From: Candidatus Kapaibacterium sp.
Lineage (GTDB): Bacteria > Bacteroidota > Ignavibacteria > Kapaibacteriales > UBA2268
Direction: 5' to 3'
Assembly (NCBI GenBank): GCA_938031175.1
Contig: CALHGZ010000002.1
Location: 1-64,000 of the forward strand
DNA: 64,000 nt
Shown here: positions 1 through 19,129 of the stretch, piece by piece
Position numbering within the stretch: the first letter of the stretch is position 1
How the letters are laid out: the number at the start of each line of letters is the position of its first letter
Made by a program: the position numbers and the translations under genes
Notes under the pieces: generated by a model
Database searches by the model: none
Seen by the model: only the letters and a program-made list of their open reading frames with translations
Told to the model about the DNA's origin: nothing

Positions 1-1205
1 TTGAAAGCAATGTACAAATTGATGGCAATCTTAATGTTGATGGCGATGTTAATTTCAATGGTAGGGTTGGTGTAGATGGCGACTATGGTAATCAATTTGA
101 TGTATTCGTAGTTGGTGCTGATGGTGAACCAATCTGGACAAATTCATTAACTAACTTATCCACGGTTGAGACAACTGACTTAGTCGCATCGAGTGCCACA
201 ATAAATACATTATTGACAGTTTCAGGTGATGCATTATTCGCTGCTGGCCAAACAGTAGATTTCAATGGTAATACTAATTTCAATGGTCAAAATGATTTCA
301 CAGGAACATTCGAACTCGATGGAGATGCCGGTACTATAGGACAGGTTATGATCAGTCAAGGCACTGGTAATACACCAGTTTGGACAAGCGACTTAACGCT
401 TAGTAATCTTACAGTAACAAATGACTTTATTTCTTCAGGCAGTTCGACAATTGGGCAAACTTACTTCAATGGTAATTTGCAAATTGATGGAAATGTAGAT
501 ATTGGAGATAATACCACATCATTTATATTGACTCTCAATGGGTCACCAGTACCTACACTTGGTTCAAACACGTTTACCGGCTTGAACATCTTTGGAACAG
601 ATCCATCAGCCGATCCAATACCTCCTGGAACTATTTTGGCAGCAGTTACAAATCATAACACATCACCCACAGTTGTTTTCCAAAATGTTGGATTAGGTCC
701 GGTACTTGATTTGCGTGGTGTAGATGGCCAAATAGCATTATCAGTAACAAAAGGTGACGCTTTATTCCAGGGTGCTGCACAGATTACTTTATCTGCTACA
801 ACCTATACACCCGATCAAGCTTTGATCGTAACTGCTGGAACTCCAGTTAATGAAGCAGCTGCAGTTATACAAAATGTTAATCCTGATGGAATAGCATTAA
901 TGTTACCAATAGGTGGTCTGGCATTATCAACTAATTATCAGGCAGTACCACCCTCTACAAATATTACTTTAGTTGGTGAATATACAGTTTGGGCAGTAAA
1001 TCCGCAAGGCGCATTAGCTGGGGTTGATTTCCCGACAACAAATTTGAAGCCCGGACAAATAATCTTCATCATAAATCTAAGCGGTACATTCAGTCTTAAC
1101 GTAAACGGACTCTTTACTATACCAGCAGGTAATTCCGCAGCTTATGTTTACGTGGATACAAATGGACTTGGAACTTATGGATGGCGACAGCTATTCAATG
1201 ACTAA
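1..1205 (+). CDS. Repetitive surface/fiber-like protein, 5' truncated by window edge
   Basis: The reading frame is open from base 3 with no stop, so the gene starts before the window; the internal ATG at 213 is not its true start. The visible N-terminal part is a run of short beta-strand repeats around DGNxNFNG and IDGNVDIGD. This repeat style is seen in trimeric fibers and in large extracellular proteins of the FCB group. The last 130 or so residues (ALSTNYQAV to YGWRQLFND) look like a compact beta-rich cap. No catalytic motif and no T9SS sorting domain is visible at the C-terminus. It could be a tail-fiber-like, adhesin or cell-surface structural protein. I do not recognise a specific family. 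It is followed by two stem-loops that likely end the transcript. Confidence 0.7.
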   Translation, partial: ESNVQIDGNLNVDGDVNFNGRVGVDGDYGNQFDVFVVGADGEPIWTNSLTNLSTVETTDLVASSATINTLLTVSGDALFAAGQTVDFNGNTNFNGQNDFTGTFELDGDAGTIGQVMISQGTGNTPVWTSDLTLSNLTVTNDFISSGSSTIGQTYFNGNLQIDGNVDIGDNTTSFILTLNGSPVPTLGSNTFTGLNIFGTDPSADPIPPGTILAAVTNHNTSPTVVFQNVGLGPVLDLRGVDGQIALSVTKGDALFQGAAQITLSATTYTPDQALIVTAGTPVNEAAAVIQNVNPDGIALMLPIGGLALSTNYQAVPPSTNITLVGEYTVWAVNPQGALAGVDFPTTNLKPGQIIFIINLSGTFSLNVNGLFTIPAGNSAAYVYVDTNGLGTYGWRQLFND

Positions 1206-1569: not shown

Positions 1570-4500
1570 ATGAACAAATTCCTTAAAGTTTTTTTATGTC
1601 TCACTTTAGCTCTCGTTTTGAGTCTGCCTTCCCTTGCAAGGGACTGGTATGTTCATAGAGATTTAGGTGCTGATAGTCCTGCAAGAGATGGCACAGATAA
1701 TTCCAGTCAGTGGTTACAAACAATTAATTATGCCATTTCACGTGCTTCTTCACATGATGTAATTTACGTTTATGGCTGGACTTCTAATAATTACAATGAA
1801 AGAGTAGTTATTCCTACTTCAAAAAACAATTTAACCATACGTGCTAAAACACCAACCCAAAAACCAGTAATCGATGGATTGGGATTGAGTTCAGCAAATC
1901 AATCATTCGGTATTTATGTTAAGTCTGACAATTGCAAATTGATTAACCTTAAAATTCAAAATTTCAAAGCAGCTACTAATGCAGGCGACTTTACAAGCAA
2001 TAATGAAGGTGGCGTCGGTATTTACGCTGACCCCGGTTTATCGGGTACTTATATTGAAGGTGTTGAAATTTACGCTTGTAACTGGGGTATATATTTACCG
2101 GAGAATAGCAGAACTACAATAGTCAAATCGGTTATTGGTGCTTCTGGAACTAATGCTATTACTTCTTTAGCTTCTAATGGCGGTGTTGGTATTGCTCTCT
2201 GGAGTAATGGTACTACAATTGAGAAAAACCTCATTGGGAAACTTTCTGATAATACTTCTGGGAATCAAATTTCTTACTGTGATGCTGATGGTATCAGAGT
2301 CGGTTACTCTACATCATCGGGCGGAAGTGCCGACCAAACAGAAATTGCTTACAATACAATTACCAATTGTGGTACAGTTCTAAATGGTTTTGGTATAAAT
2401 ATTCAAAGAGTAACAAGAACAGTCAATGTAAAATACAATACTATCCAGAATTGTGTCAATGGTCTTGATATAGATGGACCATGCCTTGACCTTTCAGTTT
2501 CTGAGAACTTGTTTATAGATGTTGGCTTAACGACGGATGTTTTGGTTCGTACAAGCAGTAACTATGATGGTATTATGCTCTTCGATATCTGGAAAAGAAA
2601 TAAAAATCAATTCTTGCAAGGTACTAATTTAGTCAATAATTCCGCAGCATCTGTTGAAAAAACGCAAAATTCAGTGATGACTTCACAAAGTTTTGGTAGT
2701 TACAGATTCATAAGAAATACAATACAATCTGTATGGAATAATGATGTTACAACGGGCCACAGACTTGGAGTAAAAGGTTATAATCCTGCTTATCCTACAG
2801 TTGGTTCACCAACATCATTTGTTTATTATGAAAACCTCAATTTTAGTGGTACAGACGATGTCGAAATTTATGGCGAAAGCGACGCTAATCCTCAATATAC
2901 TCAGATTATAACAAGTGATCAGGATGTCTGTGCTGGAACTGGTGACCCTTATGGTATAGAATTAAGAGCAAATGATTTAGAATTGCATGGTTTCAAAATT
3001 ACAGGACCTACACCTGCAAACAATACATACTCAGTAAATATATTAGTTGATGGTACAAATATTAATATTCACCATAATATAATTGAAGTACAAAGTCAGC
3101 AAACTACAAATACCCCTTTATGTTTAAGTTATGGTATTGCCAACGAAATTTATACAGCCATCGGTGATGCTATTGTTGATGGATTGCAAATTCATAACAA
3201 TACATTCACACATAATCATTCTGCTGGTAACTGGGGGTATGCAGGTATTTTAATCAATCATGCAGATAATGGAGAAATCACCTCAGCTAACAATATCAGA
3301 ATCGAAAAAAATATGTTCGAAGGCAATTTGCAATATGGCGTAATTGCACAACAGTCCGGGGTTACAATCAATGAGAATACCTTTATCACTAATTTAACGA
3401 AATCTGGTGATGGTAACTGGGATAATGGCGAAGGCTATATGGCAATTCGGATACATGACCCAAGTTCTTCTAATCTTGAGCAGAACAATATAAATATTAC
3501 CTGCAATATCATTACAGGTAGTGCCACTGGTAAAGGATTTTTAATCGGGATGTATTTAGGAGAACCTACAGATGCCCAATTATTAACCGCGAATGTTAGC
3601 TCCAACGTGATTGAAAATGTTTATTTAGGTGTCTATGTTGGCTCCGCCGAAGATGTAATTAATTCCGGTACAAATGGTGTAACAATTCAGAATAATGATT
3701 TTGGTTATGACTATGATGTTCCTTCACCGACAGGTATATCTAACGGAGCATTGGATAATGTTTCATCATATACAATAAATGCAACCGATAACTGGTGGGG
3801 CACTCCAAATGGTCCACGCCATATCAGCAATACATATAATATACCATTGCAGGGCGAAAAGGTCTTTGGTAACGTAACATTTGTACCATGGTGGGGCGCT
3901 GCACCGACAGGAACCTGTCCATTGATATCCACCAGCACAAGCGTTGGTCCAGTAACATTACGTACAAATGCAACCGAGACTTTAGTTTCATACCATACCT
4001 CAATTCAATCAGCGATTAATGCTGCCACTGCATTAAATGGTATAATATGGGCTACAGCTGGTACATATACAGAAAATTTGAATTTTAATAATAGTAATGT
4101 TGTGGCTTTGAAAGGTAAAAAGCTCGATGGATTGACTAATGCCTTCACAGCCGGAACAGCTGGCGCTGACCCAAGCGAAAGAGCTATTCTGGAATCTGAT
4201 GATGAGACCCAACCAATGGTAACGATTGCAACAGATGGCATTACAATTCAGGGCTTTGAATTCTCTGGTAATATGACTTCACCAGAAGATCCAACCTATG
4301 TCATCTGGATTGATGCTGCACCAATTACAAATCTCACTTTACAATATAATACAATATTAATGGGTAATGAAGATTACGGTGTTGTCGCTACAGATGGTAA
4401 TGGCTTGTCGAATGCAGTAATTACATACAATAAATTTATCGGCGAGTCAACAAATGCTAACTCTGACTGGTTCTCAATCGGTGACAGAAGTGGTAGCAAT

Positions 4501-7500
4501 TTGGGTGGCTATACCAATAATCTACAACTTACTTACAATGATATAAACTATGCCTCAGCTAAATTTAGACTAAGCGAGCGAGGTAATATTTCGAACATCA
4601 CTATTGAAAATAATACATTCAATAATGTAAACGGAGCTATTAAAGTTGGTCGTGATGAGAATGATCCACCAAGTAGCTTTTCTTTATATAACTTCAACAT
4701 TTTGAGCAATGTATTTAATAATACATCATTTCCAAATGAATTTGCATTTATGCTCGTAAATGAGCAACAAATTTCAGATAATTTTCGTGCTTTCGCTATA
4801 GCTGATCTTGGTGGTTCCAATTTAAGCGAATTTACAATAAATTATAACCAGATACTTTACGAATCAACAGGTTTATATTCAGCAGTAGGAATCGCCGGTA
4901 ATGATAATGATTATGGTATTTCAGGTTTTCCAACATTTACTGCGAGTGGCCAAATCAATGCAAGAAGTAACTGGTGGGGTTCGCAATACGGTCCAAAAGT
5001 AGCTCCTTATACGGCTACTTTAAACCAAGCCAATTTTGCAAACTGGTGGGACAATGCTGGGAACGGCACCATTTTATGGCCCATACAGAGGAGTTCCTGG
5101 AACCAGCACCTTCAAGGAGCAACCTGCGGTAATTTATTCATAGATTTTCATCCCTGGTGGCAAACTGCTACTGGTCCCGATATCAATGGTCCTATACAGG
5201 TTAAAAATGACAATAATACCATAACAACTTACCCAAGCTTCTTTGATGCTATTTTTGATAATGCTGCTTGCGATGATGATGGGCAATGGGATATCGTATC
5301 AGCTACATCAGGTACATATACAGAAGATTTTGGCATCTGGAAAAACTTTGTTGAACTTCGTGGCGTAAGCGATGCTAATCCAAATGCAGTAGTTATTAAA
5401 TCTACTCGATCAGCTTCAACTTATCCATCAGATTATTTCGATGCAATCGGTTTATACCTCCAGAAGGATAATGCTCCTGTCAACAATGTTCGCATACGGG
5501 GAATTACATTCGAAGGTCCTACACCTAACGCAGGTGAATATTCGGTCTTAGTATTTGTAAACGGAACAAATATAAGAATACATAACTGCGAATTCAGGGT
5601 ACCAGTATCTAATAATCCATCATACATAAGCTCTGCTATTCGAACGCACAATGAATTACTTGACTTTAGCCCAGACAATTCAATTAATGGTCTATACATA
5701 CATGACAATACATTTACGCATTTTGGCACCCTCCCCTCTAGTTTAGGATACAATGGTATCATTCTAAATTATGAATTAGGATTAGGAGCTAATTCAATTA
5801 GAGTATTCGACAATACATTTACCGGCAATTTATACACAGGTATACTAGTTTCAGCACCAGGCGTTACTGTCCGAGGTAATAATTTGACAAGTGACGTCCA
5901 AGCCTTTTATGGTATAGCTGTAATTGATAATTACACTTCAGGACCAAATGTTTTAAACAACATTACAATTAGCTGTAACAACATAACAAATACACATGCA
6001 ACGGCAACATATAGTTATGGAATTTGGTTCCCAAATACAGACCTTTCAGATCCAGATTTTGCCGCACCAATCAATGTAATCAATAATACGATTAATAAAT
6101 GTGGTGTCGGTGTACGAGTTGATGAGAATGCGGACCAGATAACAGTTAATTTTAATAATTTCAATGGTACATATACTTCATTCGCAGTACAAAATACTCA
6201 TACAACTCCCCTAGATGCAACCCAAAACTACTGGGGTTCAGTAAATGGTCCGTCTCACATTTCTAATGCATATGGTTCCCCACAAGGTGGTGCAATAAGC
6301 AATAATGTTAACTACCTGCCTTTCTGGACAAACTGGATCAATCAATGTCCCGGTAATGCTATAGGTAGTCCATTATACCCGGTTATAGTTTATGATAATT
6401 TATCCCATACCACCCAGATTGGAGTATATGCTTCTATTAATGCAGCAATTAATGATCCGTCAACATTAGCAACTCATGTTATCTACGCAGCTAATGGTAC
6501 CTTTTATGAGAATGTAACTACGAAAAACCAAGCTAATTATCTTGAGAGTGCAGGTACAACAACTATAAATGGTAATTTCACATTACTGCATCAAGCAGAC
6601 ATAACAATTGTCAGTCCCTACAAAGTAACAGGCAATTTGAATTTTGCAGGTGTGGGCAATCAAAGCTCAATTATATTGCAAAATGCCGATTTCGAAGTAA
6701 TTGGTAACTTAAACGGTGCATCCTCACCGACATCACCACCATTCAATAATTATATAGCTACAACGGGTACAGGTTCATTTATTAAGGGTGGTATCAACTC
6801 ACTTGATAATAACATTTTACCGTTGCATGCAGGTTTAGGAAATTATTTCTTCCCATTACAGTTAAAAGTAAATCAGACAGGTATAAGCAATGCCAAATTC
6901 AAAGCAAGAGTAAATGGACAAAATCCCGCATCATTCTTTGGTAAAGGTGAAGTAGATAATCCTGTAGACAATGTCTGGTTTATGGAATTATTCGATGCAA
7001 CGTGGAATCCAATCACCAATTCAAACTCAGATGTTTACTTCTACTTCCCTGAAACTGGTTCCTGGCCACTTGGCTTTGCCACAACAACAGGTACAGAAGT
7101 AGATGGTTGCTGGTCCACTTCAGCAGTATTAGGAAGTGTATTTGGAGCAAGATGGGATGGCAGTGCCTGGGAATCCCGTAAAGGCAATTCCGATGCACCC
7201 GGAACAGCAGTCTGCCGAGTTCAGCAAGTTAATACATTCTCACCCTGGGGCGTATTCTGGGGTTATTCCAATGCAGCTTTGGAAGAGCCACCCACTCATG
7301 CCAATAATTTGCAGTTTATAGGAGTATCAACCAATTCACTTACCATAAGAGTTAATCGCGGTAGCGGCGAACGCTTTATGGTAATAGTTAAGCCGGGCAA
7401 TCAGGCACCGGATTGCTGGACATGCTATCCCGGTCAGCCCGGAGAGTATCCGTCAGATGGCGAAGAATATGCAAGTGCACCTTATAACGTGTCAACAGAT

Positions 7501-10500
7501 CCAAATAATGCAGATTGGAATACTGGGTATCCATTAGGTAGCAACCCAAATCCAGCCCTACGACCCAGAATAGTATATGTAAGCCCGATGAATTCTGTTG
7601 ATCTGGGACGTGAAGTAACGATTACAAATCTCGACCACGGAACCAAATATTACGTACAAGTAATTGAACTTAATGGTTCAGGATTGTCCTATCCGAATTA
7701 TAATGTACGCGGTTGGTGTAATTTAGATTTATCGACAGTACCAAATTATAACGGCAGATGGAGAATGACAATACCTATAATTGACCTTAAATTCAAGGTG
7801 CCACCACAGAATGGTCCGTATGCGCACCATGCATGCAATACCTGGCAAGATTACTTCCATATTACAGGTTCAGGCGAACCCCCGTGGACAGTAAAATATA
7901 GCGATGGCGTTACAACCTGGGCATTAAGTTCTCCTGTTCAATCATTTAACCCATACTTCCAGGCAGTTGTTCCAACTACAGAAAGTAGGACATATAGCTT
8001 AGTATTAGTGAAAGATGCAAGCGAAAGACTTTGCGAAACGACAGGTTACCCCGAGCTTTATATACATACACCAACTACATTTACTTCGGGCAACGAAGTA
8101 ACAGTTAATCCAAATCCTGCTTGCAATGGTACATCAACAGTAACCTTTACACCAAATGTTACTGGTACAGATGCAAGCTTTATCCGTTGGGAAGTAAATG
8201 AAGGTTCTGGTTACTATGCATTAAATAATTCAGGTGGAACCTTAGGCACAGGTACAGCTTATAGCATAAATACAAGTACAGGAGTGCTAACACTCACAAC
8301 ACCTACTACAGCCGACAATGGATTCAGTTTTGTTGTGTATTATACAGGTTCAGCAACTTGTGGTCAGCCATCAGAAATTGCTTCACCAGCTCAGGTATTG
8401 ACAGTAAATGCAGGACCCAATCCGGGTACATTAAGTTCAGTACAAACAATGCCAATATGTCCCAACAATGCAGTAACACTTAATTTAACAGGTGTAAGTG
8501 CAGATAATTGGACATGGCAGCGCAGTACAGATGGTGGCTCAACCTTCAATGATATAACCGGTTATGTTAATGTAACCACAACAACTTATATAATTCCAGC
8601 AGCTGATGTTACCGAAGCAAACAGTGGTAATTATGTTTATAGAATCATAGCTTATCGAGCAGGTTGCTCGCCTGAAACTACACCAGTAACAGGTTATTGG
8701 ACATTGCAGGTAATTCAATCACCAGCAAATTGGAGCAGTAATAATGCGAATATATCGCTTGTAAGTACAGCAACAAATACAATGACAATTACCTGGGATG
8801 CAGCTTCAGGAGCAAGTTATTATAGGGTAAATGTATGGAGAGTATCAACTTCAAGTTACTTCTATACAAATCTCTACGCATCATCCAACACATTAACAAT
8901 CGGTCCACCATCGAATCCATTACCAGATTGCGAAGATTTTGGATTTGAGATAACTGCTTACAATACTTGCAATAATCCAAATACGACATCGAATATGCAG
9001 ACATTTAGTTCGTACTGCCCAAGTATAACATTGACACCTCAGAATACCTGTCCAACTGCATATAATTTCGGTAGTGTATTTGTAGGTGCAACCTCGACAT
9101 CAACATTCTCTTATGCTTTGACAGGTACATCACTTTCAACCAATGTGTCGGTAACATTGCCTTCGTCCGACTTTGAGATACGAGCAAGTTCAGACGGTGG
9201 TTCAACTTGGACACCCGATTGGACTACTTCAGCTTTATCACTAAACTATGTCCACTTGAATAATGGTGGAACCTGGTCAATCCAAGTTAGATTTAGACCA
9301 CAAGCAGCCAATACATACAGCTGTGCGACAATCACACATAGCAGTTCACCAGCAGCTAGTAAAATACAATACGTATCAGGTGTAGGTGTTGATAACTCAC
9401 CGACAGTACAAGCGAGTAACATCTGCTTCAGCAATATAGATGATCAAAATGATCAGAACATAACAATCACTTGGACACGTGGTAATGGTGCTGGTATAAT
9501 CGTGGTAGTAAGCTCAGATCAGACCTGGGAACCACTAGGTACAGCAACATATACAGCTGGTAATTTCATAGGATCAAGCAATGACTATGTTGCCTATGTC
9601 GGTACCGGTACATCTGTTAATGTAAACTTATCAAGTGCAGGAATTTCAGCAGGTCAAAACTTCTATGTCCGAGCTTATGAATACAATACATCTAGTGGCT
9701 TGAATTTCTATAGCGTAGCTACAAACGCAACAAATCCAAACATGCCGAAGTTCCTAGTATTTACCACACAGCCGAGTACAGGTCAGAATATCAATTCTGG
9801 TGCTAATTTCACGGTTGTTGTTCAATCACAATATAGAGATGGCACTCTTTACATACCATCAGTGAATGAAAACGTAACAATCAGCATCTATAGTGGAACT
9901 GGTACACTTACAACATCACCTGCTACACCACAAATTTCGAATTCAACCGGAAATACAGGTAATGTTACAGTAACCTGGACTTATGGTGATGGAGTATTGG
10001 ATGCACAATTGCAGGCATCAGCATCATGCTCCTGGGTTACTGGATTAAGCAATAAATTCAACATTATTCCATCAACCCCAACAACACAAACCCGTACAAT
10101 GATTGTAACTGGTTTTGCAAATTGCGGTGGTGGCAATGTTGATGTAAATCTCAGATGGACAAATGGTAACGGATTGCATAGAATACTTGTGGTAAGACAA
10201 GGTCAAGGTCCAGCAGTTCCATCTGATGGAGATTTTTACTATGATGCAAATGGCAATTGGTCAGATGCTAGTAAAGAATCAATCGGTGGCGATAATTCAT
10301 CCTGGGTTGTTGATAGAATTGATGTTAATAATCCTGGCGGTACTTATACAACAACAGTTTATAACTTGCCAGGCAACACGACATTCTACTTTAGAGTATT
10401 CGATTACAATGGAAATGCAACAGGTATAACCCGATACAACACCAATTCAGCATCATTCAATCCAATCCAGCGAACAACACCTGCCTGCAAAGCAGGAGCA

Positions 10501-11115
10501 GCAGACTTTTACGTAGATGCAGATGACTTCAAGGCACAATCATACAGCCGTAAAGTATATCTCTCCTGGAATACTTACATTGAACAAGGTATTCTGGGTT
10601 ATGAGCTTTACAGAGCAGATGCGAACGCGAGCGATAATTATACATTGGTCGGTTCATATCTATCCGATAAAGAGTTGCAGGCTGGAATTAATAGCTACAG
10701 CACACGCAGCTATTCATTTGTTGATAATGATGCAATGCTCGTAGTTGGTAATGAATATCATTACAGACTAATGGCAGTAGCTATTGATGGTTCTAAGTTC
10801 GATGTTGCAGAACAACTCGTTACAATCAATATAACAGAAGATCCAAATTCCAGATTTGTAGTAAATAATATAAATCCAAATCCAGCAACAGACGAGATCA
10901 GATTTGAACTCGAAATGAATGCAGAAAATGCAATCACAGTGGAAGTTATGGATGTAAGCGGAAGAGTTGTAACTAGCCCAATAAATGCTAAGATTTACAA
11001 CCCCGGCAAGCATTTCGTGACTGTACCACTTGGTGATATAGCAAGCGGAACATACTTGCTGATGATAAGCAGTGGAAGCGATGTTGTAATGCATACTTTC
11101 GTTGTTAAGAAGTAA
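1570..11115 (+). CDS. Giant T9SS-exported right-handed beta-helix protein (about 3181 aa)
   Basis: Probably a cell-surface or released protein. I chose ATG 1570 because GGAGGT lies 6 bases upstream and translation then begins with a clean signal peptide (MNKFLKVFLCLTLALVLSLPSLA). An in-frame extension of 39 residues (to 1453) or 30 residues (ATG 1480) is open. Residues about 25-1600 are stacked parallel beta-helix repeats (pectate-lyase/NosD-like, many NNTI/GI-type turns) in several modules closed by NWWG or NYWG...GP segments near nt 3790, 4970 and 6230. A linker with FSPWGVFWG (about 1890), a fibronectin-III-like part (about 1960-2050) and Ig-like beta-sandwiches follow. Residues about 3098-3181 are a T9SS type-A sorting domain (NPNPATDEI...GRVV...GTYLL). 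No catalytic residues were identified. Adhesin, polysaccharide binding or lyase activity are all possible. Confidence 0.88.
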   Translation: MNKFLKVFLCLTLALVLSLPSLARDWYVHRDLGADSPARDGTDNSSQWLQTINYAISRASSHDVIYVYGWTSNNYNERVVIPTSKNNLTIRAKTPTQKPVIDGLGLSSANQSFGIYVKSDNCKLINLKIQNFKAATNAGDFTSNNEGGVGIYADPGLSGTYIEGVEIYACNWGIYLPENSRTTIVKSVIGASGTNAITSLASNGGVGIALWSNGTTIEKNLIGKLSDNTSGNQISYCDADGIRVGYSTSSGGSADQTEIAYNTITNCGTVLNGFGINIQRVTRTVNVKYNTIQNCVNGLDIDGPCLDLSVSENLFIDVGLTTDVLVRTSSNYDGIMLFDIWKRNKNQFLQGTNLVNNSAASVEKTQNSVMTSQSFGSYRFIRNTIQSVWNNDVTTGHRLGVKGYNPAYPTVGSPTSFVYYENLNFSGTDDVEIYGESDANPQYTQIITSDQDVCAGTGDPYGIELRANDLELHGFKITGPTPANNTYSVNILVDGTNINIHHNIIEVQSQQTTNTPLCLSYGIANEIYTAIGDAIVDGLQIHNNTFTHNHSAGNWGYAGILINHADNGEITSANNIRIEKNMFEGNLQYGVIAQQSGVTINENTFITNLTKSGDGNWDNGEGYMAIRIHDPSSSNLEQNNINITCNIITGSATGKGFLIGMYLGEPTDAQLLTANVSSNVIENVYLGVYVGSAEDVINSGTNGVTIQNNDFGYDYDVPSPTGISNGALDNVSSYTINATDNWWGTPNGPRHISNTYNIPLQGEKVFGNVTFVPWWGAAPTGTCPLISTSTSVGPVTLRTNATETLVSYHTSIQSAINAATALNGIIWATAGTYTENLNFNNSNVVALKGKKLDGLTNAFTAGTAGADPSERAILESDDETQPMVTIATDGITIQGFEFSGNMTSPEDPTYVIWIDAAPITNLTLQYNTILMGNEDYGVVATDGNGLSNAVITYNKFIGESTNANSDWFSIGDRSGSNLGGYTNNLQLTYNDINYASAKFRLSERGNISNITIENNTFNNVNGAIKVGRDENDPPSSFSLYNFNILSNVFNNTSFPNEFAFMLVNEQQISDNFRAFAIADLGGSNLSEFTINYNQILYESTGLYSAVGIAGNDNDYGISGFPTFTASGQINARSNWWGSQYGPKVAPYTATLNQANFANWWDNAGNGTILWPIQRSSWNQHLQGATCGNLFIDFHPWWQTATGPDINGPIQVKNDNNTITTYPSFFDAIFDNAACDDDGQWDIVSATSGTYTEDFGIWKNFVELRGVSDANPNAVVIKSTRSASTYPSDYFDAIGLYLQKDNAPVNNVRIRGITFEGPTPNAGEYSVLVFVNGTNIRIHNCEFRVPVSNNPSYISSAIRTHNELLDFSPDNSINGLYIHDNTFTHFGTLPSSLGYNGIILNYELGLGANSIRVFDNTFTGNLYTGILVSAPGVTVRGNNLTSDVQAFYGIAVIDNYTSGPNVLNNITISCNNITNTHATATYSYGIWFPNTDLSDPDFAAPINVINNTINKCGVGVRVDENADQITVNFNNFNGTYTSFAVQNTHTTPLDATQNYWGSVNGPSHISNAYGSPQGGAISNNVNYLPFWTNWINQCPGNAIGSPLYPVIVYDNLSHTTQIGVYASINAAINDPSTLATHVIYAANGTFYENVTTKNQANYLESAGTTTINGNFTLLHQADITIVSPYKVTGNLNFAGVGNQSSIILQNADFEVIGNLNGASSPTSPPFNNYIATTGTGSFIKGGINSLDNNILPLHAGLGNYFFPLQLKVNQTGISNAKFKARVNGQNPASFFGKGEVDNPVDNVWFMELFDATWNPITNSNSDVYFYFPETGSWPLGFATTTGTEVDGCWSTSAVLGSVFGARWDGSAWESRKGNSDAPGTAVCRVQQVNTFSPWGVFWGYSNAALEEPPTHANNLQFIGVSTNSLTIRVNRGSGERFMVIVKPGNQAPDCWTCYPGQPGEYPSDGEEYASAPYNVSTDPNNADWNTGYPLGSNPNPALRPRIVYVSPMNSVDLGREVTITNLDHGTKYYVQVIELNGSGLSYPNYNVRGWCNLDLSTVPNYNGRWRMTIPIIDLKFKVPPQNGPYAHHACNTWQDYFHITGSGEPPWTVKYSDGVTTWALSSPVQSFNPYFQAVVPTTESRTYSLVLVKDASERLCETTGYPELYIHTPTTFTSGNEVTVNPNPACNGTSTVTFTPNVTGTDASFIRWEVNEGSGYYALNNSGGTLGTGTAYSINTSTGVLTLTTPTTADNGFSFVVYYTGSATCGQPSEIASPAQVLTVNAGPNPGTLSSVQTMPICPNNAVTLNLTGVSADNWTWQRSTDGGSTFNDITGYVNVTTTTYIIPAADVTEANSGNYVYRIIAYRAGCSPETTPVTGYWTLQVIQSPANWSSNNANISLVSTATNTMTITWDAASGASYYRVNVWRVSTSSYFYTNLYASSNTLTIGPPSNPLPDCEDFGFEITAYNTCNNPNTTSNMQTFSSYCPSITLTPQNTCPTAYNFGSVFVGATSTSTFSYALTGTSLSTNVSVTLPSSDFEIRASSDGGSTWTPDWTTSALSLNYVHLNNGGTWSIQVRFRPQAANTYSCATITHSSSPAASKIQYVSGVGVDNSPTVQASNICFSNIDDQNDQNITITWTRGNGAGIIVVVSSDQTWEPLGTATYTAGNFIGSSNDYVAYVGTGTSVNVNLSSAGISAGQNFYVRAYEYNTSSGLNFYSVATNATNPNMPKFLVFTTQPSTGQNINSGANFTVVVQSQYRDGTLYIPSVNENVTISIYSGTGTLTTSPATPQISNSTGNTGNVTVTWTYGDGVLDAQLQASASCSWVTGLSNKFNIIPSTPTTQTRTMIVTGFANCGGGNVDVNLRWTNGNGLHRILVVRQGQGPAVPSDGDFYYDANGNWSDASKESIGGDNSSWVVDRIDVNNPGGTYTTTVYNLPGNTTFYFRVFDYNGNATGITRYNTNSASFNPIQRTTPACKAGAADFYVDADDFKAQSYSRKVYLSWNTYIEQGILGYELYRADANASDNYTLVGSYLSDKELQAGINSYSTRSYSFVDNDAMLVVGNEYHYRLMAVAIDGSKFDVAEQLVTINITEDPNSRFVVNNINPNPATDEIRFELEMNAENAITVEVMDVSGRVVTSPINAKIYNPGKHFVTVPLGDIASGTYLLMISSGSDVVMHTFVVKK

Positions 11116-11133
11116 GTATTGCTCTGGAAAATT

Positions 11134-11167
11134 AAAACGGCAGGCTGAACAAGTCTGCCGTTTTTTT
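11134..11167 (+). terminator. Intrinsic terminator after the giant T9SS gene
   Basis: AAAACGGCAG (11134-11143) pairs with CTGCCGTTTT (11155-11164) around an 11-base loop and runs into a T-tract (11161-11167). It sits 18 bases after the stop codon, so the giant gene is probably transcribed separately from the next gene. Confidence 0.85.
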
Positions 11168-11199
11168 ATTAATTTTGAGAAAAAATGAAGGAGGTAAAA

Positions 11200-12339
11200 T
11201 TGGCAAAGTTATTAGTATTAGCAATTTTATTCAGTGTAACTCATTTGTATTCAGCCACATACTATGTAAATGGCATTAAAGGAAATGATACTTTAAAAAC
11301 TCATACCGGATTGAGTGAATCTAAAGCATTTAAAACTATAAATAAGGCAATATCTATTGCTAAGCGAGGTGATATAATTAAAGTTAAAGGAAAAGTTGAC
11401 ACAATCCAAATTATATACAAAGAATCGATATACGTGCCGTATGATAAAGAAGATTTAAAAATAATCGGTGAACATTCACCAATTATTGATGGTAATTTGG
11501 AAGTAGAAGATAAACCCTACTATGGAATTTTGATCAAAGGACGCGGTACCGTTGTAGATGGGTTTACTATAAGAAATTTTACCGGTACAAAGGTAAATGA
11601 ATATGGATTAACTGGCTCGGCTGGAATAATTTTAGATAGAACAAATACTTGTATAATTATAAATAACAAAATTGAAAATTGCAATTGGGGCATAGTTGCG
11701 ATTGAGAGCGAATATTGCAGTATTCAGGGTAACTCAATTTTTCGGATATTAAGCTCATCCAATGATTTTAATTTAAAATCAGGAGGTGTAGCGATGTATT
11801 TAGTGAATAATGAAGTTACAATGCAAAAATACCTGATTGGAAATGAAAAAGGCAACATAATTGATGATGCCTCGCTTTGTGGAATCTGGTTCGGTACGGA
11901 GCTTGAGAATATTTTAGCTGATTTGACTCTAATAGAAAATAATACAATTTCTCGTATTAGACAGGGAGCATCACTTTTCATCCGTAATCTGGAAGGAACG
12001 ATTCGTATAACAAAAAATACATTCCGAAACAATCATCATTCACTTGAAATTGAAGGTGTTTGTATTGATACTTGGATATCAGAAAATATATTTGCCGGCT
12101 CTACTTCTGCTTATGAAATCAAAACTGATGAGCGATATCCAGCCTCATTAATATACGATATCTGGAGAAACAACAAAAATGAGTTTTATAGAACAACCTA
12201 TGCCCTTATAGAAAAGAGAAATAATATAGGTGCAAGCGATAGATTCAGATATATTTGGAGCAATAAAGAAGGGCTAGAAAATTACAAAGGTAACTATAGA
12301 ATAGAAGAACTTGCAGGCACAAAAACAACAGAGAACTAA
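11200..12339 (+). CDS. Secreted beta-helix protein, paralog of the giant protein's N-terminus
   Basis: An exported protein of about 379 aa with right-handed parallel beta-helix repeats. I prefer the TTG at 11200 because AAGGAGGT (11188-11195) lies just upstream and translation then starts directly with a signal peptide (AKLLVLAILFSVTHLYSA). The ATG at 11185 would place that Shine-Dalgarno sequence inside the gene. The protein follows the first ~400 residues of the giant protein in order: CNWGI, KYLIG/KNLIG, CGIWFG, then DIWRNNKNEF against DIWKRNKNQF. It therefore looks like a duplicated helix module. It lacks a T9SS sorting domain, so it may stay in the periplasm or leave by another route. 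Function unknown; the fold is shared with pectate lyases but no catalytic residues were identified. Confidence 0.82.
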   Translation: MAKLLVLAILFSVTHLYSATYYVNGIKGNDTLKTHTGLSESKAFKTINKAISIAKRGDIIKVKGKVDTIQIIYKESIYVPYDKEDLKIIGEHSPIIDGNLEVEDKPYYGILIKGRGTVVDGFTIRNFTGTKVNEYGLTGSAGIILDRTNTCIIINNKIENCNWGIVAIESEYCSIQGNSIFRILSSSNDFNLKSGGVAMYLVNNEVTMQKYLIGNEKGNIIDDASLCGIWFGTELENILADLTLIENNTISRIRQGASLFIRNLEGTIRITKNTFRNNHHSLEIEGVCIDTWISENIFAGSTSAYEIKTDERYPASLIYDIWRNNKNEFYRTTYALIEKRNNIGASDRFRYIWSNKEGLENYKGNYRIEELAGTKTTEN

Positions 12340-12359
12340 CATTTATTTTGCAACTTACT

Positions 12360-14300
12360 ATGGCAAAAAAAGCAAAAATCAAAGGGAATTCATCGTACAA
12401 AAAAAAAGAAAAACAACAATCCGTTAAGACCTCAAAACAAAAAAAGAAAATTGAACTTAAAAGTATTTTATTGAACACATTGATTGTGCTTGCAATTTTT
12501 TCCTCTACATATTTGTTTTACAGCTCAACGCTAAAATATGACTTAGTATATTGTGATGATGATATATTTGTTTTAAAAAATAAGCAGTTTAATTCAAAAA
12601 TTGAAAATATAGTTAAATCATTCCAAACTGCAATTGGCAGCTCATATTACAGACCGATTTTACAAGCATCATTCATAATTGATCATCAATTGGGTGAAAC
12701 TGATGTATCAGTTTATCGCAGGACAAATTTAATATTGCATTCACTTGGTGCTTCAATTTTATTTTTATTTTTCATCACCTTTGGGTTCGATCGTCTTCCT
12801 TCACTGCTATTTAGTACATTGTTTGCAGTACATCCGTTACTGACACCTGCAGCATCTTGGATATCAGGTCGTAATGATTCTTTAATTGCAGTATTTATTC
12901 TTTTAGCATTTATTTTCCAGATATTATATTATCGCTCGTATAAGATTTATTCTATACCAATATTTTATTTTCTTCATTTGTTAATGTTTGCTTTAAGTTT
13001 ATTTACAAAAGAAATAGCAGTGGTTTATCCATTTATTACAATAATATATTCATTTTATCATCGTGGAGACAGGCTTTTAAGTCCGAAAAATTTAGCATTG
13101 GGTATTGGCTGGGTAGTAATAATGATTGTCTGGTATATTTTACGTCAAATAGCATTGAGTAACGTTAAACTCATGGACGAAGTTGGCTTTAGTGCGTTAC
13201 TAAAGAATTTACCATCAGTAGCAGCAATGATTGGCAAGATATTTCTCCCAATAAATATGATAGCCTTATCAAATTATGAAACCTTGTCCTTGCTTAGTGG
13301 TTCGATTATAATTATTGCATTTATAATATTCATAATTTTTAGTAAAAGGGTAAAATTCCAAAATATAGTTCCTGGTTTGAGCTGGTTTATATTGTTTATA
13401 GCACCTACTTTAATAGTACGCATAATGTTAGTTGATGATTTTTTTGATTATGCTGAGCATAGAGCTTATTTGCCAATGATAGGTATATTTTTAATAATAA
13501 TAGAAATATTTCGCCGCTATCAGATAGATTTTCAAAAGCCTTTAGTTTTAATTATTTCAATTTTATTGATTGGATTATTTGCTTTTCGTTCCAAATTATA
13601 TGAATCAAAGTTCCAGAATAGATTTACATTCTGGAATCATCATATTGAGGTATATCCGGACAAAGCTCGTGGATACCTTGATTTAGCTAAAGCATATTAT
13701 TTTATTAACAAGCTCGATAGTGCTGAAATATTATATAAAAAAGGAGTTGAGTTAAATCCAGAGAATTATAACTTTTACATAGATTTAACTGCTGTTTACA
13801 TACGCAAAAAAGAATATGACAAAGCATTAGCTAATGCAAAGAAAGCTATTGAACTCAATCAAGAAATACCTCTTGCATATTATAATTTAGCTAGAGCATT
13901 AGCTGAACTGGGACGATATGAAGAAGCAATCCCAAACCTTGAAAAAGCACTCGAAAAACAAAACAATCCGATATGGTTAATTGATTTAGGGGTGATGTAT
14001 TTTCAAGCGAAGAATTATCAAAAAGCAATTGAAATTTTAACTAAAGCTATAACAATAAAACCTAACGACCCTAATGTATATAACAATTTGGGTTCAGCTT
14101 ATGCTGCTAATCGTCAATATGATGAAGCTGAAAAAATTTGGTTAAAAGCCCTTTCTATAGAACCTGAATTATACCAGACATTGGAGAATTTATTGAAATT
14201 CTATTTAATGAAAGGAGATTTGCAAAAAGCAAGGGAATACAAAAACAGAATTCTAAAAACCGGAAAAGAGTTACCAGTTAGCCTTAATATTCCAGACTAA
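12360..14300 (+). CDS. TMTC-like membrane glycosyltransferase with C-terminal TPRs
   Basis: A multi-pass membrane protein of 646 aa. ATG 12360 is preferred over the in-frame TTG at 12348 because the paralog at 19132-20880 also begins MAKK. A Lys-rich cytosolic N-terminus is followed by a first membrane segment and an acidic loop with CDDDIF (D66-D68). That position matches the Asp motif in the first outer loop of GT-C glycosyltransferases. Many hydrophobic segments follow to about residue 420, including HPLLTPAASWISGRND. Residues about 434-640 are tetratricopeptide repeats (NPENYNFYIDL, LAYYNLARAL, PNVYNNLG). The architecture resembles eukaryotic TMTC O-mannosyltransferases and bacterial homologs. 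Transfer of a lipid-linked sugar to exported protein is inferred, not shown. It lies 20 bases after the beta-helix gene, probably in one operon. Confidence 0.78.
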   Translation: MAKKAKIKGNSSYKKKEKQQSVKTSKQKKKIELKSILLNTLIVLAIFSSTYLFYSSTLKYDLVYCDDDIFVLKNKQFNSKIENIVKSFQTAIGSSYYRPILQASFIIDHQLGETDVSVYRRTNLILHSLGASILFLFFITFGFDRLPSLLFSTLFAVHPLLTPAASWISGRNDSLIAVFILLAFIFQILYYRSYKIYSIPIFYFLHLLMFALSLFTKEIAVVYPFITIIYSFYHRGDRLLSPKNLALGIGWVVIMIVWYILRQIALSNVKLMDEVGFSALLKNLPSVAAMIGKIFLPINMIALSNYETLSLLSGSIIIIAFIIFIIFSKRVKFQNIVPGLSWFILFIAPTLIVRIMLVDDFFDYAEHRAYLPMIGIFLIIIEIFRRYQIDFQKPLVLIISILLIGLFAFRSKLYESKFQNRFTFWNHHIEVYPDKARGYLDLAKAYYFINKLDSAEILYKKGVELNPENYNFYIDLTAVYIRKKEYDKALANAKKAIELNQEIPLAYYNLARALAELGRYEEAIPNLEKALEKQNNPIWLIDLGVMYFQAKNYQKAIEILTKAITIKPNDPNVYNNLGSAYAANRQYDEAEKIWLKALSIEPELYQTLENLLKFYLMKGDLQKAREYKNRILKTGKELPVSLNIPD

Positions 14301-14365: not shown

Positions 14366-15982
14366 ATGATTGTCATGATTTCACTGCATATAAGGTATTT
14401 GTTTATTTTTTACTTATGCGTTTGTATAGGTTTTTGCAAAGATGATGAAATTGAAAAAAGAATTCAATTTCAATCACAAAAGTTTAAGTTTATACTTGAG
14501 ACACTTTACAAAAATTATGCTGATACTATAAACGTGGAAGAATTAAGCGATATTGCTTTTAAAGCAATGCTCCAGCATCTCGATGATCAATCAGTATATT
14601 ATAACAAAGAACAGAGGGATAATTTTAAAGCAAGCATTCAAGGTTCAAAAATTGGATTGGGGATTAAAGTACAATTTATAAATGATACTTTAACTATTGT
14701 TGGAATAATTGAGCGAAGTCCTGCTGATTCATTAGGGTTAAAAATTGGGGATAAGATTTTATTTATAAATGGAATCAATACAATAACAGCTTCGAAAAGC
14801 GATATATCTGATTTGCTTAATGGAAATGATGGAGACGAAATTCACTTAATTTACCGTGATTTCTTTTCAGGGAAACTTGAAGAAAAAAAATTTATTCTTC
14901 GTTCGTATCATTTACCTTCAATTTCAGCTTGTTTGAAAATTAATGATACAGATTTTTGGTATATTGATATTGATAATTTTTCTCAGACAATAGTTGAGGA
15001 TTTCGATAATATTAGCCATCACTTGCTAAGTGCAAAAGGTTTGATATTTGATTTACGAGGTAATCCTGGTGGTTACTTAGAAAGGGTATGTAAATTAATT
15101 GAGTATTTCTTACCATCGGGTTTAACAATTACTTACACAGAAGCCAGAAATCCTGATTTCGTTGTAAAGTATAAAACTGAACGTAATGGTAAATTTTCTA
15201 ATATACCTATTGTAGTTATAATAGATAAATCATCTGCATCAGCAAGTGAAATATTTGCAGCTGTAATGCAAGATTATGATAGAGGAATCGTTGTTGGAGA
15301 ACAATCATTTGGAAAGGGTACGGTCCAAAAGTTATGGGAATTGACTGACGGAACTGCATTTAGAGCTACGGTTGCTAAATATTTTACTCCGCTTGGTCGT
15401 AAATTACAAAGAGTATCAAAAACAAATATTTCAAATATCGACATAGACCCTTCTATTACTTTATTTGGCGGAAAGGAAGCCGAGCGACAAATCAAAGATT
15501 TATTGAGTAAAACAGGTGGGAAAACTCAATTACCTATTTATCGCACTGCAAAAGGTCGTATTTATATTGGTTTAGGTGCAGTGATGCCTGATTATATCGT
15601 TGCACGAGATACCACAAGCCCCCTTATTGGTGCATTAAATCAAAAAGGAATTTTTATGTTATGGGCTTTGGAATATTTAAAGCGAAATAGTGAGAATATC
15701 AAATCGAATTATGGTGAAAAATTTAATAAATTTGCTATAGATTGGAAGTTGAACCAAGAAGATTTGGAAACATTTATAAAATTAGCAAAAGTTAATGGCA
15801 TTTGGAATGAAGAAATGTACCAAAAAGATAAAAATTTAATCATAGAATTAATGAAAGCATCGATTGCAAACATACTTTGGGGCAATAATGGTATAAAAGC
15901 GGTTACAAACCAATTCGATAAGCCGGTTTTGAGAGCAATCGAAATTATGAATGAAGCAAAAGAGTTAATTACAAATAAATGA
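14366..15982 (+). CDS. S41-family C-terminal processing protease with PDZ domain
   Basis: A secreted or periplasmic serine protease of 538 aa of the CtpA/Prc family. A hydrophobic N-terminal export signal is followed by a helical region (about 30-85) and a PDZ domain (about 90-170; IERSPADSLGLKIGDKILFI). The S41 core has RGNPGGYL, SSASASEIFAAVMQDYDRG with the nucleophile Ser near 292, and SFGKGTVQ with the catalytic Lys near 317. The C-terminal 150 residues (about 390-538) are a helical extension common in FCB members. Such proteases trim or degrade envelope proteins from their C-termini. Start ATG 14366; ATG 14375 is an alternative. The next gene starts 9 bases downstream. Confidence 0.9.
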   Translation: MIVMISLHIRYLFIFYLCVCIGFCKDDEIEKRIQFQSQKFKFILETLYKNYADTINVEELSDIAFKAMLQHLDDQSVYYNKEQRDNFKASIQGSKIGLGIKVQFINDTLTIVGIIERSPADSLGLKIGDKILFINGINTITASKSDISDLLNGNDGDEIHLIYRDFFSGKLEEKKFILRSYHLPSISACLKINDTDFWYIDIDNFSQTIVEDFDNISHHLLSAKGLIFDLRGNPGGYLERVCKLIEYFLPSGLTITYTEARNPDFVVKYKTERNGKFSNIPIVVIIDKSSASASEIFAAVMQDYDRGIVVGEQSFGKGTVQKLWELTDGTAFRATVAKYFTPLGRKLQRVSKTNISNIDIDPSITLFGGKEAERQIKDLLSKTGGKTQLPIYRTAKGRIYIGLGAVMPDYIVARDTTSPLIGALNQKGIFMLWALEYLKRNSENIKSNYGEKFNKFAIDWKLNQEDLETFIKLAKVNGIWNEEMYQKDKNLIIELMKASIANILWGNNGIKAVTNQFDKPVLRAIEIMNEAKELITNK

Positions 15983-16806: not shown

Positions 16807-17877
16807 ATGCAAGATAATGTAATTAAAAATATTTTGCTGATTTTTTTGATAGTTTTAGTATTTTACCTTTTGACAATACTTTCAAGTATTTTGATACCTT
16901 TTGTTCTTGCTTTTCTATTTGCTTCCATTTTTCAGCCTTTGATCATATTACTGAGGAGATGGAAAATTCCTATCTGGATAATTGTTCCATTTATAACAGC
17001 TTTTACTTTGATGGTAATTTTTGGTTTATCGAATATAATATATTCGACCGTGGTTGATATAATATCAAATAAAGATTTCCTCATAACAAGAATAAATTTG
17101 AAATTAGACGAAATATTTCAGTGGTTGAGGGAAATGTTTGGCATAAGGTTGAATACTCGCATTATCAACAAGGAATTAAAAAATATTTTCGATGCAGAAA
17201 CCATATCTTCAATTGTTCAGAATTTTGCGTCTGTTTTGGGAAGTTTCACGGGTTCATTTATAATGTTTGCTTTGTATTATATATTCCTTCTGATTGGAAT
17301 GGGAAAATACAAGGACTACTTTAATTATGTCGCTGGTAAAGAGGAATCAAATTTATTAAAGTATTACGAACGAATACAAAAATCCATATTCTCATATATG
17401 CTTTGGAAGACATTGATAAATTTGATAGCAGCTGTTTATGTATATTTGGTTTGTCAATTTTTCGATATTCCCTTTAGTTTATTTTGGGGCTTTTTAACAT
17501 GGCTTTTATTGTACATACCTACGATTGGTTCTATTTTGGCTGTATTGATGCCAGCTTTAATGGCATTTGTACAATTTGATTCGATTGCCGAGGTTCTTGT
17601 TTTCTTAGCTATTGTTATAGTTTTTCTTTTTCTTTTTGGTAATCTAGTTGAACCAAAAGTATTAGGCTCACAGTTAAGGCTGAATACATTGGTTGTAATT
17701 TTCGGATTAGTTTTCTGGGGCTATATTTGGGGTATCCCCGGTATGTTGTTATCTATACCAATGATGGTCATTTTAAAAATCATATTTGAGCATATTCCTA
17801 GCTTTCAAGTTTTTGCGAGGATGATGGGACCAGTCGAGCAAATTTCTAACGAACTTGATGCTCAAAAAACTGGTTAA
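16807..17877 (+). CDS. AI-2E family transporter (PerM/UPF0118-like permease)
   Basis: A 356-aa inner-membrane protein with the typical family layout. There are two N-terminal hydrophobic segments (about 6-35), a third (about 58-78), a central amphipathic region (about 80-140), then a C-terminal bundle with LWGFLTWLLLYIPTIGSILA-like and GNLVEPKVLGSQL motifs. EPKVLG near residue 282 is a family hallmark. Family members export or exchange small solutes (quorum signals, Na+/H+ in some); the substrate here is unknown. Its 3' end overlaps convergently with the 3' end of hydF by 32 bases. Confidence 0.88.
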   Translation: MQDNVIKNILLIFLIVLVFYLLTILSSILIPFVLAFLFASIFQPLIILLRRWKIPIWIIVPFITAFTLMVIFGLSNIIYSTVVDIISNKDFLITRINLKLDEIFQWLREMFGIRLNTRIINKELKNIFDAETISSIVQNFASVLGSFTGSFIMFALYYIFLLIGMGKYKDYFNYVAGKEESNLLKYYERIQKSIFSYMLWKTLINLIAAVYVYLVCQFFDIPFSLFWGFLTWLLLYIPTIGSILAVLMPALMAFVQFDSIAEVLVFLAIVIVFLFLFGNLVEPKVLGSQLRLNTLVVIFGLVFWGYIWGIPGMLLSIPMMVILKIIFEHIPSFQVFARMMGPVEQISNELDAQKTG

Positions 17878-19129
17878 ATTCATTTCTACGAGCCTTTCTA
17901 AATGCTTCAAGTGCTTCTGGGAAAGGTGATAAAACTCTTTCTAAAACTCTTTTTGCATAAGATATAGCTATACCATAGTTCGTAATTGGCACGCCTTCCT
18001 TTAATGCCTTTTCAATTCGATTTAATTTCTCATTACGGGTGAGCATACAACCACCACAATGGATAATTAATTTGTATTCGTTCAAATTTGTTGGGAAATC
18101 ACGCCCAGCAACGGTTTCGAATACTAAGTTTTTGCCTGTGAAATGTACCAACCAATTAGGAATTTTAACTCTGCCAATATCATCCTCTATGGGATGGTGA
18201 CTACAGGCTTCGGCAATTAATATCTTGTCATTATTCTCTAATTTATCAATAAACACTGCACCGACTGATTCAATTAATAAATTTCCTTTAAACCTTGAGA
18301 AAAGAATAGAAAAAGTAGTACATTTTATATGTTCCGGGGTTTCAGCAATCATTTTGTGAACTACTTGAGAATCGCAAACGACAATGTCGGGGATTTGAGA
18401 TTTGCAGATTAATTCGAGTGTTTTTTTATACTCAGTTTCTCTTACTACTATTGCTATTGCATTATGATCTAAAATATCTCTTATGACTTGAACTTGAGGA
18501 AGAATTAATCTGCCTTTTGGTGCTTCTTTATCAATTGGAACGATTAATATTGCAATTCCCTCAGGTTTTATTAAGTCTCCAATTAATGGTATTTTTTGTG
18601 TAAATTCAGATGATAAGCCTTTTAAAATACTACTTTTGATTAAATTGATATATTTATCACGGTTTTTGCTATCTATAGCAGAAATTCTGATAACTTCAGG
18701 GGAGTATTTATAAAGTAAATCTATAAATTCACTCCGTGGTTCAATAGTATCGATTTTATTAATTAAAATTATCAATTCGATATCATTTCGCTTAATTTCT
18801 TTAACAATATTTTCTTCATATTCGGTCCAATGATTTGGCTCGACAACAAGAATAATGATATCAGCTCGGTCAAGGATTTTTAAAGTACGTTCTATACGTT
18901 TTTCGCCAAGAACAGATTTATCATCAATTCCACCAGTATCGAGAAGAGTGACAGGACCGATTGGAAGTAATTCCATTTGTTTTTCAACAATATCGGTTGT
19001 GGTACCTGCAGTTGGTGATACAATTGAGACATCCTGCTGAGAAATCATATTCAATATACTCGATTTGCCAACATTTGTTCTTCCAATTATACCAATTTGA
19101 AGTCTTAATGATTTAGGTGTTTTTATCAT
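17846..19129 (-). CDS. hydF: [FeFe]-hydrogenase H-cluster maturation GTPase HydF
   Basis: Scaffold/carrier GTPase that delivers the 2Fe subcluster to apo-HydA. The 427-aa protein has an N-terminal G domain with P-loop GRTNVGKSS, DTGG and NKID. It continues into dimerisation and cluster-binding domains. The diagnostic [4Fe-4S] ligands are present as CSH (C309, H311) and HCGGC (H357, C358, C361), which separates HydF from Era/Der GTPases. It is the last gene of the minus-strand group hydG, TMTC-like, hydF, and starts 2 bases after the TMTC-like gene. Its target is presumably HydA at 42501-44261. Its 3' end overlaps the convergent AI-2E gene by 32 bases. Confidence 0.95.
   Translation of the reverse strand: MIKTPKSLRLQIGIIGRTNVGKSSILNMISQQDVSIVSPTAGTTTDIVEKQMELLPIGPVTLLDTGGIDDKSVLGEKRIERTLKILDRADIIILVVEPNHWTEYEENIVKEIKRNDIELIILINKIDTIEPRSEFIDLLYKYSPEVIRISAIDSKNRDKYINLIKSSILKGLSSEFTQKIPLIGDLIKPEGIAILIVPIDKEAPKGRLILPQVQVIRDILDHNAIAIVVRETEYKKTLELICKSQIPDIVVCDSQVVHKMIAETPEHIKCTTFSILFSRFKGNLLIESVGAVFIDKLENNDKILIAEACSHHPIEDDIGRVKIPNWLVHFTGKNLVFETVAGRDFPTNLNEYKLIIHCGGCMLTRNEKLNRIEKALKEGVPITNYGIAISYAKRVLERVLSPFPEALEAFRKARRNEFNQFFEHQVR

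Follow-up and report, generated by a model that had tools for sequence, protein, structure and literature searches.

A stand-alone paralog of the first module of a giant predicted T9SS cargo, found together with it in seven genomes of the Kapaibacteriales

Results and discussion

The window (the whole stretch of 64,000 nucleotides analysed here, from a Candidatus Kapaibacterium genome) contains a gene for a giant protein with a T9SS sorting domain, and behind it a gene for a much shorter protein that sequence comparison identifies as a paralog of the giant's first module (module A). The likeliest reading of this short protein, in our view, is that of a soluble counterpart of module A which arose long ago and has been retained. 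A functional tie between the two proteins, suggested by their joint presence across genomes, is a tentative reading that we hold at a little under even confidence, and a role for the short protein as partner, cap or chaperone of the giant, as raised in the original prediction, is possible. The features discussed are listed in Table 1.

Table 1. Features of the giant gene, the short gene and their surroundings in the window
Feature	Positions	Strand	Description
Fibre-like ORF upstream of giant	3..1205	+	Open at contig start
Giant T9SS beta-helix protein (predicted)	1570..11115	+	3181 aa
Module A of giant	1639..2694	+	Residues 24-375; paralogous to short protein
Motif DIWKRNKNQF	2584..2613	+	Giant residues 339-348
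Linker into second helix	2647..2769	+	From giant residue 360; resembles tails of short proteins as profiles
Giant C-terminal block	9283..11112	+	Last 610 residues; matched in giants from 8 of the 123 genomes at E < 1e-80
T9SS sorting domain (Por_Secre_tail)	10870..11106	+	Giant residues 3101-3179; Pfam, NCBIfam
Terminator-like hairpin and T run	11134..11164	+	13 pairs; between giant and short genes
Short protein	11185..12339	+	384 aa; free-standing module A paralog lacking a sorting domain
Motif DIWRNNKNEF	12157..12186	+	Short residues 325-334; at predicted helix (320-329)
Tail of short protein	12202..12336	+	Residues 340-384
TPR protein, next gene	12348..14300	+	Same order in G014, about 44% identity
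S41 peptidase with PDZ	14366..15982	+	Same order in G014, 40% identity

Relationship of the short protein to module A

The original prediction held that the short protein tracks approximately the first 400 residues of the giant, and this is borne out by BLASTP, which aligns giant residues 3-375 with the short protein at 111 of 377 identical positions (29%, E 5e-28). The Smith-Waterman score of the two is 297, as against 43.2 +/- 7.5 (maximum 78) for 300 shuffles of giant residues 24-430. When 14 stretches along the giant were scored against the short protein, the two overlapping module A reached 297 and 165. The remaining twelve scored 30-85, and the highest of these (85) was the stretch directly behind module A (residues 454-883). 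A search of the organism's own genome with the short protein (E <= 0.001) matched only the short protein itself and the giant module, and among 60 relatives the best match beyond orthologs of the short protein and giant modules was at 4.7e-8. The alignment is thus better than random by comparison with the shuffles, with the rest of the giant and with the other proteins of the 60 relatives. The motifs named in that prediction are also present as described (CNWGI at giant residue 170 and short residue 166; DIWKRNKNQF at 339 of the giant and DIWRNNKNEF at 325 of the short protein); the length that it gave for the short protein, 379 residues, is to be corrected to 384 (positions 11185-12339).

The giant as a predicted T9SS cargo

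The sorting domain of the giant scores above the cut-offs of both models used (Pfam Por_Secre_tail, 30.2 bits versus 27; NCBIfam TIGR04183, 30.2 bits versus 23), the first 23 residues form a signal-peptide-like start (by eye), and SprA_N (PF14349) is found above cut-off in the same genome, SprA being the sole component of the T9SS translocon that was examined. On the sorting domain and SprA we classify the giant as a putative T9SS type A cargo (PF18962 / TIGR04183), for which export to the surface is predicted. The short protein differs in that, as originally predicted, no sorting domain matched in it (E <= 0.01, Pfam and NCBIfam), and it does not belong to the type A cargo by this measure. 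A separately encoded copy of the first module of a cargo is not known as a part of the T9SS.

Toward their C termini the giants share a further block: their last approximately 600 residues are matched in at least 14 places in 8 of 123 genomes of the order (E < 1e-80, with up to ten candidates per genome scored), namely the seven genomes that have both giant module and short protein (see below) and G012 (85% complete), which has neither a full short protein nor a full module A. Because G012 carries the C-terminal block without the other two, the short protein tracks module A and not this block. An open frame of 8400 aa in G008 (G008:C98:10070-11809) bears the same C-terminal block.

Structure and family of the short protein

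The short protein has a signal-peptide-like start (by eye) and its first Cys is residue 156, so that no lipoprotein anchor is expected; together with the missing sorting domain, these properties point to a soluble periplasmic protein. Its AlphaFold model, built on an alignment of six short proteins and two giant modules, is a beta-helix (pLDDT 89.5, pTM 0.88) in which the tail contributes strands. Foldseek returned 27 matches to this model at E <= 0.001, and the best solved neighbour aligns over 285 residues with Z 28.2 and rmsd 2.7; the solved neighbours comprise beta-helix glycoside hydrolases, lyases, epimerases, NosD, PfbA and tailspikes, with the glycoside hydrolases, lyases and epimerases at the top (Z 28.2 to about 25). 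The sequence also scores above the cut-off of the beta-helix repeat model TIGR03804 (25.7 bits versus 19.45), and with the model, the Foldseek matches and the Z scores this argues for a right-handed parallel beta-helix, a common fold that leaves the function of the short protein undecided. Giant residues 1-797, folded without an alignment, gave an unusable model (pLDDT 33.3), and the structure comparison covered the short protein.

Sequence searches of solved structures at E <= 1 gave one match for the short protein (2xwg, a sortase, E 0.87) and none for giant residues 1-427. The short protein resembles the streptococcal adhesin PfbA and phage tailspikes in fold (Z 24.6 and 23.9), but the fold alignments hold 13-14% identity and neither was matched in the sequence search of solved structures. 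NosD was considered and rejected as an identity for the short protein: the two are alike in fold class (NosD as fold neighbour, Z 23.8) and TIGR04247 matches in part, but at 54 bits versus a cut-off of 300, PF05048 falls just below its cut-off (22.6 versus 23.6 bits), and the short proteins form a group of their own with a DIWxxNxNxF-type motif, found with giants.

Co-occurrence across the order

Single-sequence searches of 60 relatives and of 54 genomes of the family located short proteins and giant modules before profiles were applied to 123 genomes of the order, with up to 15 candidates per genome scored for the short profile. The profile of the seven short proteins gave full-length matches (E <= 4.6e-152) in seven genomes (G000, which is that of the window, G008, G009, G014, G024, G074 and G075); giant modules came next, in six of these seven (1.2e-51 to 2.1e-20), and the first match that is no giant module was at 1.5e-14. 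A profile of six giant modules recovered full modules (E <= 3.1e-40) in precisely these seven genomes out of 123, including the giant of G008 (2298 aa, with sorting domain; 3.1e-40), which was unlisted with the short profile. The rows of a profile match it by construction, and the informative results are that no further genome appeared and that the G008 giant, which is not a row, was found. That the two genes occur together, which the original prediction proposed to check, is accordingly upheld for the full forms, which are found in these seven of the 123 genomes and nowhere else among them. Hypergeometric probabilities of the joint presence, which ignore kinship, are 1.4e-11 by genome and 4e-7 by genus; the seven genomes represent five genera of one family, three of them sharing one genus.

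Other genomes show partial matches, to the start of the module. The strongest belong to genus g19: that of G033 (1.0e-27) spans positions 2-133 and lies at a contig edge, and that of G018 (5.8e-23) spans positions 2-221. Neither genome has a full short protein. Beyond the family, no full short protein was found in 395 genomes of the phylum and 391 of the class (overlapping sets; E <= 1e-12; four to five candidates per genome scored). No paper on the pair was found by title or abstract start among the matches listed.

We asked how independent these seven occurrences are with an EngA tree of 28 of 30 genomes (G001 gave no match, and G013, whose gene is split over two contigs, was left out). On this tree the seven genomes do not group as a single clade (AU p 0.007), and parsimony requires four changes for the pair, two of them forced by strongly supported branches; the argument for independence uses this one gene tree, in which many forks are weak. 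Divergences among the short proteins are uncorrelated with those among the giants (r -0.60 over 10 non-independent genus pairs), which argues against tight co-evolution of the two.

Origin of the short protein

The original prediction described the short protein as a module copied beside its parent, and in that form this part is not supported. In the tree of 13 rows the short proteins are split from the giants at 100/99, and with the G008 giant added (columns at least 75% filled) the seven short proteins form one branch against seven giant modules at 97/95; two of the giant branches in this unrooted tree are long. The giant nearest to the short proteins is that of the window (90/91). Of four tests that constrained a genome's own pair to group together, three rejected the constraint (AU p 0.029, 0.0009 and 0.002). 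The fourth, on the window pair, was borderline (AU p 0.057), and for this pair a separate duplication is not clearly rejected. Only in the window, moreover, does a full-module giant adjoin the short gene. We therefore read the divergence as one old split, suggested by the sequence trees, and not as a fresh local copy, the window pair being the borderline case.

The tails of the short proteins bear on the direction of the event. As profiles, these tails match the linker of the giants (hhalign E 6.3e-5, probability 64.6%, 33 columns), whereas 21 control stretches of the giant alignment gave 0.099 or worse. Pairwise, the signal is strong between the short proteins and giants of genus g25 and in some pairs involving G008 and G009, and is not strong in many others; when the tail of the window's own short protein was paired with each of six giants, no signal was seen. 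Since the tails resemble the linker, the short protein seems to be a giant-type ancestor truncated a little way into the second module, and truncation is the origin that we favour on these alignments: an ancestral giant-type gene would have been duplicated, and one copy, cut at that point, would have been kept as a separate gene. The reverse direction, in which a giant-type gene arose from a short form, is possible.

Genomic neighborhood and transcription

In the window the fibre-like ORF is followed by the giant, the short protein, the TPR protein and the S41 peptidase, and G014 has the order giant, short protein, TPR protein, S41 peptidase. The match of the adjacent giant of G014 (2141 aa, T9SS) to module A is confined to the first half; the full-module giant of that genome is on another contig. 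In G008, G024, G074 and G075 the giant and short genes lie on different contigs and no giant adjoins the short gene, and in G009 the short gene is on a contig of 3060 bases, behind a fibre-like gene. The giants of G024, G074 and G075 likewise stand behind fibre-like genes that have signal-peptide-like starts; the similarity of the window's fibre-like ORF to those of other genomes is weak (best E 1.4e-5). The window's ORF (3-1205) is rich in T, G and N and has no Pfam match. The giant of G075 is broken into several frames (L044 11168-20000), through either assembly error or real decay. Downstream in the window, the TPR proteins at 12348-14300 and 19132-20880 are related (about 25% identity, with a membrane-like N-terminal part) and flank the genes for the S41 peptidase and for HydF (17846-19129). 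HydF and a BATS-domain radical SAM protein (20919-22313) are encoded by hydrogenase maturation genes that are probably unrelated to the pair.

The hairpin between the two genes of the window (-23.1 kcal/mol, z -4.34) lies some 20 nt upstream of the short gene's start codon, and similar hairpins precede the short genes of G014 and G009 (by eye). These terminator-like structures make simple co-transcription with the giant unlikely and, as far as predicted structure can tell, suggest separate transcription or controlled read-through. The Bacteroidota-type promoter word TAnnTTTG lies 15 nt before the short gene of the window; in G024, G074 and G075 the distance is 98-99 nt, and in G008, G009 and G014 the word is absent within 180 nt before the short gene. 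The chance expectation is 0.14 per 180 nt, and the word is not used as evidence here.

Possible roles of the short protein

What a functional tie would consist of can be outlined from the predicted properties. The short protein would be a free, soluble copy of module A in the periplasm, where it would stay while the T9SS takes the giant to the surface, and it would act with the giant or on the ligand of module A; it might, for example, shield the edge of a helix in the periplasm before export. In its most specific form, a T9SS partner derived from the cargo itself and dedicated to it, in contrast to general chaperones such as Skp, capping or templating the edge of the cargo's helix in the periplasm until export, this proposal is in our view unlikely. 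A comparison is offered by SkpA, described in passages of PMC10994853 as a Skp-type periplasmic chaperone of the T9SS extended translocon that is needed for type A cargo and SprB. The likeness is that of a periplasmic protein serving T9SS export, the location of the short protein being a prediction; unlike SkpA, the short protein is a beta-helix that is paralogous to one module of a cargo, and an export role for it is hypothetical.

The principal alternative, plausible but on balance doubtful, is that the short protein is an independent periplasmic or secreted beta-helix protein related to glycans, either a binder or an enzyme, which shares ancestry with the giant and makes no contact with it. 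Its closest solved fold neighbours would fit such a role, as would three acidic residues (E80, D295 and E311) that are invariant in all seven short proteins, and both the uncorrelated divergences and the separate transcription suggested by the hairpin are in keeping with it. Against it, the short protein has no match to a lyase or hydrolase family (E <= 0.01, Pfam and NCBIfam), the residues invariant over the 13 rows of short proteins and giants are mainly Asn, Gly and hydrophobic, with one Cys, a single acidic residue (an Asp) and no Lys, Arg or His, and the joint presence in seven of seven genomes is left unexplained. Joint inheritance or transfer could explain that presence if the short protein were a retained relic, inherited or moved along with the giant gene and having no role tied to it; the small number of genera and the neighbours partly common to the window and G014 agree with this, but we judge it improbable, given that the EngA tree does not unite the seven genomes in one clade, that the frame of the short gene is intact in seven of seven genomes with invariant positions kept at about 30% identity, and that in four of the seven no giant adjoins the short gene. 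It is this joint presence without obligatory adjacency that makes a functional tie our preferred reading, ahead of a relic.

Conclusions

The analysis corrects the picture of the short protein as a fresh local copy of its neighbour's module. Were there no tie between the two proteins, it would still define an uncharacterised protein pair, encountered to date in a single Kapabacteria-like family. Should the tie be functional, the short protein would offer a small, confidently modelled protein with which to study how a cargo of more than 3000 residues with several beta-helix modules is kept from misassembly in the periplasm before its export by the T9SS.
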